From positions 1 to 64,000 of the forward strand of contig JAIXOL010000067.1 in the NCBI GenBank assembly GCA_027486845.1: 64,000 nt of DNA, in the 5' to 3' direction. Shown here in pieces: positions 6,541 through 9,408 of the stretch (positions are counted from its first letter, which is position 1; each line of letters opens with the position of its first letter). The position numbers and the translations under genes were made by a program. Below the pieces are notes generated by a model. That model searched no databases. It saw only the letters and a list, made by a program, of their open reading frames with translations, and had not been told where the DNA came from. Origin of the DNA: Cytophagaceae bacterium (GTDB taxonomy: Bacteria > Bacteroidota > Bacteroidia > Cytophagales > Spirosomataceae).

Positions 6541-7530
6541 TTAATTTTTATTGCTTGCCAAATATTCGTTTCTGACCACGGTTGCAGTTTTGTGGTCGCC
6601 CAAATGATGCCAACCAGGAGGCATAAAAATATATAAAACTTTATCTTTAAGCGTAGGAGCTGCCCAAATATCCCTGAAAAGTGCGATAAATTCACCAAAA
6701 TAAACATCCCAAAGATTTCCCGAATCCATTGGTCTAGTGATGCCATATTCGAGTTTTAATTCATCTTTTTCGAGTTGATAGGTACCGAAAATTTTATCCC
6801 AAATATTGAGTAAATTACAAAAATTAGTATCCATATAAAGTGGATTTCGGGCGTGATGCACTCGGTGGTGCGATGGCGTGAGAATAATATGATTCAAGAA
6901 GCCCATTTTGCCATTTTTCATCAGGTTTTCACCTACGTGAATAAACATTCCGTATGTGCCGTCAATAAACATAATGAAAAACAAAAGTGCAGGATGAATA
7001 CCCAAAATGATACAAATTGATCCACGGATGATATCAGCATAAGGGCCTTCGAGGAAGAAATGAGCGTGCGAAACCGAAAGATTCATGTTTTCGGGTGTGT
7101 GATGGGTTGAATGCAGACACCAAAATAAACGAACTTTATGTCCCAAGAAATGATATATAAAATGCGAAAATTCCCAAACGATATAGCCATAAATGAGCCA
7201 ATACCAAGTAAAAGTGGTTTGGAAGGGAGCATAAGGCTTAAGCGAAGCAATCAGAAACGAAATAGCTCCGATTGAAAGAAAGCGACTAATAAAACGGTTG
7301 AGAATGTAAATGAGGAAAGTCATTTTATAGACTTTGGTATGTGAGTTTTTTTGGATAACACCACTGATAAGTTCAATAACGAGCAGTATTGGCAAAATTG
7401 GGCCAATGGCTGTAATGATGCCATCGAAGGTGAGGAATGTGCTAAAATCGCCTGATTTTAGTATCTCTAAAGTACGGTGTAAGCCCAAGAAACTTATTAT
7501 TTCTTGGTACAAAAACTCAAGGATTTCCAT
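6541..7530 (-). CDS. Sterol desaturase / fatty acid hydroxylase family protein
   Basis: Integral membrane di-iron oxygenase of the fatty acid hydroxylase superfamily. The three histidine boxes are clear: H123xxxH127xxxH131, HSTHH ending at residue 144, and HHRVHH near residue 220. Four or five hydrophobic segments surround them. In Bacteroidota such enzymes hydroxylate or desaturate lipid chains, but the substrate is unknown here. It is the first gene of the minus-strand run that continues with the two M16 peptidases. A 13-base word, TCTATAATATTTG, is nearly repeated twice just upstream (7538 and 7576). Confidence 0.85.
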   Translation of the reverse strand: MEILEFLYQEIISFLGLHRTLEILKSGDFSTFLTFDGIITAIGPILPILLVIELISGVIQKNSHTKVYKMTFLIYILNRFISRFLSIGAISFLIASLKPYAPFQTTFTWYWLIYGYIVWEFSHFIYHFLGHKVRLFWCLHSTHHTPENMNLSVSHAHFFLEGPYADIIRGSICIILGIHPALLFFIMFIDGTYGMFIHVGENLMKNGKMGFLNHIILTPSHHRVHHARNPLYMDTNFCNLLNIWDKIFGTYQLEKDELKLEYGITRPMDSGNLWDVYFGEFIALFRDIWAAPTLKDKVLYIFMPPGWHHLGDHKTATVVRNEYLASNKN

Positions 7531-7624: not shown

Positions 7625-7912
7625 CTATTCTGAAGAGGAAGTTTTTTCTTGAAATTTCATTCGAGCTTTTTCAAAGTTCTTCTTGTTTAGTGCATTGTGC
7701 TGTTCTTTGGTGATTTTTAAACCCTCTCTTTCCACAAACTTTATGACCGAAGAGCGAGTTCGTTTGAGGTTCTGTGCAATTTCTAACATTGAGATATTTC
7801 CATGACTTTTGAGAATGTATTTCTGTTCGATGACTGTAAACTCACTTCTATTCCATCGAAGTCTAATTGCCGTTGTTTCTTCATGAGTTCTTAAAAAAAC
7901 CATGTTTCTCAC
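7625..7912 (-). CDS. Small HTH protein, 3' fragment of the HTH array
   Basis: 95 aa from a GTG (ATG nine bases further in). Contains one helix-turn-helix-like unit at ~residues 25-65 (YILKSHGNISMLEIAQNL then RSSVIKFVEREGL) and a charged C-tail. Its start overlaps the end of the preceding ORF by 32 bases in another frame, and removing one T of the T7 run would fuse the two. No convincing separate start signal is seen, so it may be translated by coupling, by slippage, or not at all. The function is unknown; DNA binding is inferred from the fold pattern. Confidence 0.5.
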   Translation of the reverse strand: MRNMVFLRTHEETTAIRLRWNRSEFTVIEQKYILKSHGNISMLEIAQNLKRTRSSVIKFVEREGLKITKEQHNALNKKNFEKARMKFQEKTSSSE

Positions 7913-8216
7913 ATAGATGCCTTACTTGCGTCCAACTGTGCGTTCCCAAATTATTGCTCAGTTCTTTGGCGGTCATCGTGCGATAATTGACTTCCAAAAA
8001 TTTAATTACTTCAGAAGGTGTTTCTTGGCTCAGAGGAATCCTGAGTGCTTTAATTTTTAATTTATGAAGTGCGATTCTGATAACGTCTCCGCTACAATTT
8101 AGCTTTTCGGCAAACTCTTTTACAGTATAATTCTTATGATTTTCTTTAATAAACCTTTGTCGTTCCAGAATCGATGTTGGTATAGCTTTTGCGGGCTTAA
8201 TGGCCTTTATATGCAA
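7881..8216 (-). CDS. Small protein with two HTH units, middle fragment
   Basis: 111 aa in an open frame whose only start is a TTG two codons after an in-frame TAA. It holds two repeat units, about residues 17-55 (RQRFIKENHKNYTVKEFAEKL) and 68-105 (IKFLEVNYRTMTAKELSNNL). The peptide encoded just upstream of the TAA, SITSVRY-stop-YLHIKAIK, aligns with VIRIALHKLKIKAL in this ORF, so the true repeat array extends through the stop. It is better read as part of a broken gene than as a complete one. Confidence 0.4.
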   Translation of the reverse strand: MHIKAIKPAKAIPTSILERQRFIKENHKNYTVKEFAEKLNCSGDVIRIALHKLKIKALRIPLSQETPSEVIKFLEVNYRTMTAKELSNNLGTHSWTQVRHLCEKHGFFKNS

Positions 8217-8339
8217 ATATTAATACCTAACTGAGGTAATTGATAAATTCAACATTTTGGCCATTTCGAGAACACTATAATGTTTTTAGTGTTTCAGAAT
8301 AAATCCAATTTTTTTTGGCTGTAATGTTACTTTATTTCT

Positions 8340-8645
8340 TTATTTAGATTCTATCGCCGACACCGTTATATTGGGTTTACTTGTGAGTTTCTTGACAGGA
8401 ATATCTGGTTGAGGTGAATCAATTACTTTCGGTGTCTCAAGGGTAGAGGTTAATTTCTCCTTTTTTATAAATTTCTCAATAATTACAATAGGCTTTCCAA
8501 TTTTGATGGCCAATTGTTGTTTGGTCAACTGATTGATATTATTTCTGATGCTATTCTTGTCAGAAGCATTAAGTTCGTTTGGACCTACAGACTTAAATCT
8601 CTTTCCTTCAAAACTCTTTTTTCCGAAGAGTGTTATTTTTCTCAT
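8340..8645 (-). CDS. Small HTH-like protein, 5' fragment of the HTH array
   Basis: 101 aa starting MRKITLFGKKSFEGK. A single HTH-like unit lies at ~30-65 (NNINQLTKQQLAIKIGK, then IIEKFIKKEKL), followed by a Pro/Lys-rich tail. A -7 box lies 24 bases before the ATG, so this piece is probably still transcribed. The stop TAA is followed in the same frame by further repeat units, which suggests it is the 5' end of the longer decayed gene. No known family was recognised. Confidence 0.5.
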   Translation of the reverse strand: MRKITLFGKKSFEGKRFKSVGPNELNASDKNSIRNNINQLTKQQLAIKIGKPIVIIEKFIKKEKLTSTLETPKVIDSPQPDIPVKKLTSKPNITVSAIESK

Positions 8646-8668: not shown

Positions 8669-8676
8669 CAAATATA
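8669..8676 (-). promoter_or_regulatory. Promoter -7 box for the HTH array gene
   Basis: Minus-strand TATATTTG matches TANNTTTG and is placed ~24 bases before the ATG at 8645. No matching TTTG at -33 was found. Confidence 0.45.
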
Positions 8677-8850: not shown

Positions 8851-9408
8851 ATGAAACAGAAAATATTGATTATCACTGGCGATGCTGGTGAAGGTTACGA
8901 ATGTTTATATGGCAAACATCGCTTTGAAGAAGCTGGATATGAGGCGGTTATTGCTGCACCGAGCGTAAAAAGACTTAATTTGGTTATTCATGATTTTGAA
9001 CCAGGCTGGGATACTTATATTGAAAAACCAGGCTATATTGTCGAGTCGAATATTGCTTTTGATAATATAAAAGTTGAGGATTACATTGCCGTACTGATTT
9101 TAGGTGGAAGAGCTCCCGAATTTTTGCGACACAACAATAAAGTAATTGAAATTGTAAGAGAATTTGATAAGGCTGATAAATTTGTTTTCTCGATTTGTCA
9201 CGGGATTCAGATTCTTACAGCTGCCGGTTTGGTTAAAAATAAAACCGTTACGTGCTACGAAAATGTTAGATTTGAAGTAGAAGTTTGTGGAGGAAATTTT
9301 GTGGGCAAAGACGAAGCCGTAAGAGACGGGAAATATGTTTCTGGCCAAACTTGGCAATCGCATCCCGATTTTTATAGAATGGTTTTTGAGTGTTTGAATG
9401 AATTATAA
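8851..9408 (+). CDS. DJ-1/PfpI family protein
   Basis: A 185-aa single-domain class I glutamine amidotransferase-like fold. The nucleophile elbow reads SICHG with Cys116 and adjacent His117, and an acidic residue in DAGEGYE (~14-17) is at the place of the conserved Glu that tunes the cysteine. Members include deglycase, chaperone and stress proteases, and the exact activity cannot be told. It stands alone between the divergent HTH array gene and a terminator. Confidence 0.85.
   Translation: MKQKILIITGDAGEGYECLYGKHRFEEAGYEAVIAAPSVKRLNLVIHDFEPGWDTYIEKPGYIVESNIAFDNIKVEDYIAVLILGGRAPEFLRHNNKVIEIVREFDKADKFVFSICHGIQILTAAGLVKNKTVTCYENVRFEVEVCGGNFVGKDEAVRDGKYVSGQTWQSHPDFYRMVFECLNEL

Follow-up and report, generated by a model that had tools for sequence, protein, structure and literature searches.

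One minus-strand reading frame of an Emticicia (Bacteroidota) genome, running from the ATG at position 8645 to position 7625, is almost certainly the pseudogene of a fast-evolving protein built of tandem helix-turn-helix (HTH) units. The frame is interrupted by three TAA codons and then changes frame, and its decay is supported by the intact orthologs that occupy matching genomic surroundings, the absence of the lesions from those orthologs, and the relaxed selection on the broken copy, a combination that bears out the recently decayed gene proposed in the initial annotation of this DNA. The protein is presumably no longer produced from the locus, and in its intact form it probably bound DNA. 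As a pseudogene the locus is an ordinary phenomenon; it is of mild use as a worked example, in which one genus shows the same gene whole, newly broken, deleted, and all but erased, and it draws attention to a little-described tandem-HTH family of bacteria in which the unit number varies, a family worth an annotation line.

Organization of the broken locus

The 64,000-nucleotide stretch of DNA analyzed here (hereafter the window) belongs to an Emticicia genome of 5.36 Mb (82 contigs, given as 99.96% complete) in which a profile search recovered no second copy of the gene at an E-value of 0.001 or better. The earlier description of a single minus-strand frame crossing three TAA codons and shifting at a run of seven Ts was reproduced in its coordinates and its ORFs (101, 111, and 95 aa): counted from 8645 the stops fall at codons 102, 120, and 142, the T7 run is present, and the last ORF lies in another frame (Table 1). 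When the ortholog profile was compared with the window, profile positions 1–260 matched across all three stops (E = 2.4e-99) and positions 255–342 matched the last ORF (E = 9.6e-41), so the split pieces align to successive parts of one intact-ortholog profile, a pattern beyond chance.

Table 1. Features of the broken locus and its flanks, in window coordinates
Feature	Positions	Strand	Description
DJ-1/PfpI family gene	8851..9408	+	Divergent, upstream neighbor; Pfam PF01965, E = 3.6e-32
Promoter-like box TATATTTG (TAnnTTTG type)	8669..8676	-	31 bases upstream of the first ATG
First ORF	8340..8645	-	101 codons; HTH-like unit 1 and start of a variable linker; ended by stop 1
HTH-like unit 1	8451..8564	-	Three helices at residues 27–63 of the modeled intact ortholog; weak profile similarity to the other units
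Stop 1, TAA	8340..8342	-	Sense codon in the four intact orthologs and in G006
HTH unit 2	8220..8315	-	Interrupted by stops 2 and 3; near its end two codons shorter than in G004 and G005
Stop 2, TAA	8286..8288	-	Equivalent part deleted in G006
Stop 3, TAA	8220..8222	-	Adjoins a six-base alignment gap; equivalent part deleted in G006
Middle ORF	7881..8216	-	111 aa
HTH unit 3	8043..8165	-	Pfam HTH_11 match (E = 3.5e-5; 24.0 bits, cut-off 25); matched by profile to units 2, 4, and 5
HTH unit 4	7905..8012	-	Ends at the last codon used ahead of the frame change
T7 run, frame change	7893..7899	- (A7 on plus strand)	Not in the four intact orthologs
Last ORF	7625..7912	-	95 codons from GTG, in another frame; unit 5 and C-terminal tail
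HTH unit 5	7715..7846	-	In the frame of the last ORF; coordinates counted by hand
Fatty acid hydroxylase family gene	6541..7530	-	Downstream neighbor; Pfam PF04116, E = 9.3e-21

Orthologs in Emticicia and comparison of lesions

A profile built from four intact proteins was run on 11 Emticicia genomes, including that of the window, and matched the gene in seven of them, the window's included; no match at an E-value of 0.001 or better was found in genomes G001, G002, G003, and G009. The intact ortholog that the initial annotation had proposed seeking among relatives is carried by four of the 11 genomes as one uninterrupted ORF of about 313–356 codons, namely by Emticicia aquatilis (G004) and the metagenome-assembled genome (MAG) Emticicia sp. 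HJF.15 (G005), with 356 aa each, by Emticicia aquatica (G008; 346 aa), and by G007 (313 aa from the aligned ATG). Its surroundings match those of the window on both sides in E. aquatilis, HJF.15, and E. aquatica and through the hydroxylase gene alone in G007. In wider searches the profiles gave few matches (in 12 of 200 family genomes, seven of them Emticicia; in 12 of the 395 genomes of a phylum-wide sample, one being the window's own), and many of the distant matches may share the HTH units only. The small ORFs of the window were also considered as separate genes, a reading that was rejected: the four undamaged matches among the 11 genomes are single ORFs, and the pieces in two further genomes, the MAGs labeled Emticicia agri (G006) and Cytophagaceae bacterium (G010), are fragments of damaged copies.

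Damaged copies are thus present in the window's genome, in the E. agri MAG, and, as a remnant of 37 residues, in the Cytophagaceae MAG. The three stops and the T7 run occur in none of the four intact orthologs, and the site of the T run holds six Ts in E. aquatilis and fewer in the others. Stops 1 and 2 fall at codons with substitutions, stop 3 adjoins the six-base gap, and none of the three coincides with a change in homopolymer length. In a tree of three flanking genes, of which several genomes lacked one or two and in which the placement of G007 is doubtful, the window's genome and the E. agri MAG are sisters with an ultrafast bootstrap of 100. The damage in the E. agri MAG is of a different kind, consisting of a stop at codon 99 (three codons before the position of stop 1), the deletion of a large internal part, and a further stop within the tail. 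The sites of stop 2, stop 3, and the frame change have been deleted there, so the two genomes may have one first lesion in common. Stop 2 had seemed, from the DNA alignment, a possible lesion of this kind and was rejected, since on a reading of the frames the TAA in the E. agri MAG is located at the deletion junction. In the Cytophagaceae MAG, a gap of about 390 bases between both neighbors holds only a scrambled N-terminal remnant. The damage in the window/E. agri pair and in the Cytophagaceae MAG implies at least two losses of the gene, and its absence is evidently tolerated.

Selection and timing of decay

Branch tests were performed by maximum likelihood, with code written for the purpose, on six sequences for which dS to the outgroups was saturated. 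Downstream of stop 1, omega on the window and E. agri MAG branches was 0.495 against a background of 0.130 (LRT 12.2, p about 0.0005 by our conversion; LRT 13.1 on a second tree), and a value of 1 was not rejected for these branches (LRT 3.5). In the N-terminal domain the corresponding values were 0.241 and 0.097 (LRT 3.7; second tree 3.2). Compared pairwise, the window copy and that of the E. agri MAG gave an omega of 0.25 for codons 1–98 and of 0.53 for 58 tail codons, and the intact genes of E. aquatilis and HJF.15 gave 0.10 along their whole length. Among the points that count against the verdict of decay are the intact promoter-like box and the omega of the window branch alone downstream of stop 1; the latter, at 0.376, is well under 1, and we take it to average over a functional and a dead period. 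Belinky and colleagues (PMC7918605) argue that many bacterial genes with in-frame stops are not pseudogenes, since they keep dN/dS below 1. On this criterion by itself, the copy in the window would qualify as a candidate for retained function, but its stops are not shared and its constraint has dropped.

The window branch spans about 0.17 neutral changes per site, of which about 0.28 was unconstrained. Of random changes, 4.2–4.4% create a stop, and about 45 stops arise per change per site; by rough arithmetic, about two stops would be expected from the neutral time, and the number seen is three, including the one next to a small deletion. The saturated dS and the different trees preferred by the N-terminal part and the remainder make these numbers approximate. 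As a rough estimate, the loss of function falls in the final fifth to third of the window's branch after it parted from the E. agri MAG.

It is very unlikely that the first 101-codon ORF has been kept as a working truncated protein, with one HTH-like unit and a linker, and that only the rest is dead. Such a protein would agree with the N-terminal ORFs of 101 codons in the window and 98 codons in the E. agri MAG, which end three codons apart at different stops, with the retention of the promoter-like box, and with an N-domain omega that lies below 1 on both branches (LRT against 1, 11.9). In a joint model, however, one shared unconstrained fraction of 0.30 fitted as well as two separate ones, 0.20 for the N-terminal part and 0.43 for what follows (2ΔlnL = 1.0), and imposing full constraint on the N-terminal part made the fit worse by 4.6, so that a separately kept N-terminal protein finds no support. 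Uniformly placed lesions would all miss the N-terminal part by chance with a probability of 0.24 in the window and 0.36 in the E. agri MAG, and in the Cytophagaceae MAG this part is scrambled.

Programmed recoding, the other possibility put forward in the initial annotation, would require readthrough of the TAA codons and slippage on the T run to give the complete protein, perhaps in small amounts, and we consider it extremely improbable. The protein is recognizable from end to end behind an intact promoter-like box, and in-frame stops have been proposed to be read through frequently in bacteria (PMC7918605). A recoding site is not conserved, however, given the absence of the stops and the T7 run from all intact orthologs; stop 1 is not common to the E. 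agri MAG, which has a sense codon there, the yield would fall multiplicatively over the three stops and the frame change, and selection is relaxed. TAA is also the usual stop in what is an ordinary code, ending 26 of the window's 39 non-overlapping ORFs that reach 200 aa, and TTTTTTT is common, with 83 matches on both strands of the window (overlaps in longer runs counted apart) and one run inside the intact hydroxylase gene at 7346–7352. That the lesions are sequencing or assembly errors in an intact gene is hardly credible: one lesion does lie in a homopolymer, but the stops are found at substituted codons or beside a six-base gap and accompany substitutions that show relaxed constraint over the length of the gene, the assembly is given as 99.96% complete in 82 contigs, and related genomes bear different damage in the same gene.

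Two side observations concern these analyses. The count of TTTTTTT is about half that in dinucleotide-preserving shuffles of the window, positions 1–64000 (83 vs. 172 on average, sd 20), a shortfall that would fit an avoidance of long homopolymers in the window. The N-terminal domain (8645–8436) and the rest of the gene (about 8327–7628) each prefer a different tree by about 17 log-likelihood units, the former placing the window copy and that of the E. agri MAG with E. aquatica and the latter placing them with E. aquatilis and HJF.15, which suggests recombination inside the gene or very uneven rates. The intact gene evolves fast, with a dN between E. aquatilis and E. aquatica of 0.28 vs. 0.06 for the adjoining hydroxylase gene.

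HTH units and the modeled intact protein

An AlphaFold2 model of the E. aquatilis protein, made together with two relatives, contains five three-helix groups (residues 27–63, 105–153, 166–206, 221–257, and 281–316) and a long C-terminal helix. Mean pLDDT was 72 and pTM was 0.27, so that the units themselves are predicted and their arrangement is not. In the profile–profile comparison of units that the initial annotation had suggested, five of the six pairs among units 2–5 matched with probabilities of 78–98% (10.7% for units 4 and 5), which supports a common origin of these four units. Unit 1 gave 0.7–5.5% in four pairs with the other units; its designation as an HTH unit follows the predicted three-helix fold, its likeness in sequence being weak. 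The original claim of similar HTH units in all parts of the locus holds for units 2–5, with unit 1 as a candidate further unit. With the letters of the window alone, compared with shuffles, the strong pairs were units 2 and 3 (z = 6.8), 3 and 5 (3.7), and 3 and 4 (3.3), and the low pairs were units 4 and 5 (1.3), 1 and 4 (1.3), 2 and 4 (0.4), and 1 and 2 (0.3). Pfam HTH_11 scored above its cut-off in the four intact orthologs. The profiles and the predicted fold together support the earlier reading of a tandem-HTH protein, which would presumably bind DNA.

The number of units is variable: five are present in E. aquatilis, HJF.15, E. aquatica, and the window, four in G007, which is without most of unit 2, and apparently six in a 388-residue relative from a genome of another genus (G035). 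The loci that bear on this difference are L005 1132–2070 and L063 970–2133.

A Foldseek search of the PDB with the intact model returned nothing at an E-value of 0.001 or better. The structural alignment by VIA-align covered mainly residues 100–213 of the model, with a best Z of 7.8, and in the region of unit 3 (166–213) 48 residues superposed on the HTH of FapR (4a0z) and of regulators like it with an rmsd of 1.8 and a Z of 7.8, a score that may reflect only a common arrangement, as the tool itself remarks for Z under 8. FapR carries one HTH plus another domain. A search of solved structures by sequence yielded at best an unrelated-looking adhesion protein (E = 0.079), which was rejected.

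Relationship to described families

The initial annotation did not recognize the family. This stands in so far as no model in Pfam or NCBIfam spans the whole protein, and it does not stand for a part of the protein, which is matched by the phage family PHROG 323 ("transcriptional regulator, D5-like"), the nearest described family. PHROG 323 was the best phage family for the three intact orthologs scanned, which matched it over the HTH units (E = 1.7e-20, 6.1e-14, and 6.6e-12), and the middle piece of the window matched at E = 1.4e-7. The best match nevertheless covers only about positions 94–199 of the 319 in the profile, which is itself unspecific, with matches in 11 of 14 control genomes, and the Emticicia gene differs in lying between DJ-1/PfpI and fatty acid hydroxylase genes. 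A phage origin of the window copy was rejected, no relative having been found in viral contigs or in 50,697 phage records and its direct neighbors being those two genes. Plasmids gave only partial matches below 60% identity, in eight of 72,556 records.

Two genomes from another genus of the family (G149 and G124) hold tandem-HTH relatives, at L064 1474–2358 and L065 1315–2247, which match PHROG 323 at 1e-35 and 4.8e-25. Two ORFs tested beside the G124 relative had no PHROG match. In G149 a phage portal protein gene (PHROG 11226, E = 1.3e-29) precedes the relative by two ORFs, which places proteins of this kind in prophage-like stretches as well. Another parallel is the G035 protein, which is colinear with the Emticicia protein in its N-terminal unit and C-terminal tail and shares 31% identity with that of E. 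aquatilis; it differs in being about one unit longer and in having no TAnnTTTG in the 70 bases before its aligned ATG.

A further comparison is offered by Cbp1, the CRISPR-repeat-binding protein of Sulfolobales, which has three HTH domains that arose by duplication and are aligned along the repeat (PMC10883916). Tandem HTH units are common to both proteins, and Foldseek lists a CRISPR repeat binding structure (2lvs) with a probability of 0.92 but an E-value of 0.2. Cbp1 is, however, archaeal and has three units, and its model (NF040595, cut-off 140 bits) scored 16.8 in HJF.15 and 20.6 in E. aquatica and was not listed for G007 or the window piece; judged by its sequence, the intact protein is not a Cbp1. 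Among the matches listed in literature searches, those on Emticicia pseudogenes contained nothing on this gene in their titles and the starts of their abstracts, and those on D5 and tandem HTH proteins contained nothing on this protein family in the portions available.

Proposed history of the gene

The ancestor would have been a chromosomal gene with its own promoter-like box, encoding a protein of about 340–356 residues with five three-helix HTH modules on linkers and a helical tail. By analogy with Cbp1, the intact protein most likely lay along DNA with successive modules on successive stretches, and we infer that it served as a transcription or chromatin-type factor. The window copy would then have gained the three stops, the small in-frame deletion, and the frame change, and the most that ordinary translation from the first ATG could now give is an N-terminal fragment of 101 residues. 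In a more extended picture, the intact family would read DNA by modules, its HTH unit count and hence its site length would shift in evolution, its loss would be tolerated repeatedly, and a one-unit truncated remnant in the window and the E. agri MAG may compete for part of the old site; taken as a whole, we think this picture unlikely.

Promoter-like box and flanking genes

The promoter box that the initial annotation had reported before the first ORF is present, and it is kept at −29 to −32 in all six Emticicia copies that the scan took in (the window, E. aquatilis, HJF.15, the E. agri MAG, G007, and E. aquatica, with the remnant in the Cytophagaceae MAG left out). We take this TAnnTTTG box to be the Bacteroidota −7 box; the pattern occurs 117 times in the window, both strands included.

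The DJ-1/PfpI gene adjoins the locus in E. aquatilis, HJF.15, E. aquatica, the E. agri MAG, and the Cytophagaceae MAG, and there is no such neighbor in G007. The hydroxylase gene adjoins the locus in G007, E. aquatica, and the remnant of the Cytophagaceae MAG and lies one ORF further on in E. aquatilis and HJF.15. In the E. agri MAG the hydroxylase neighbor is also broken, the search showing a match to the last quarter only (residues 252–329) with four stops, at L020 3550–3780 (G006:C52:27049-27279). A distant hydroxylase paralog of E. aquatilis (G004:C1:385917-386771) has two TAA codons inside the match.
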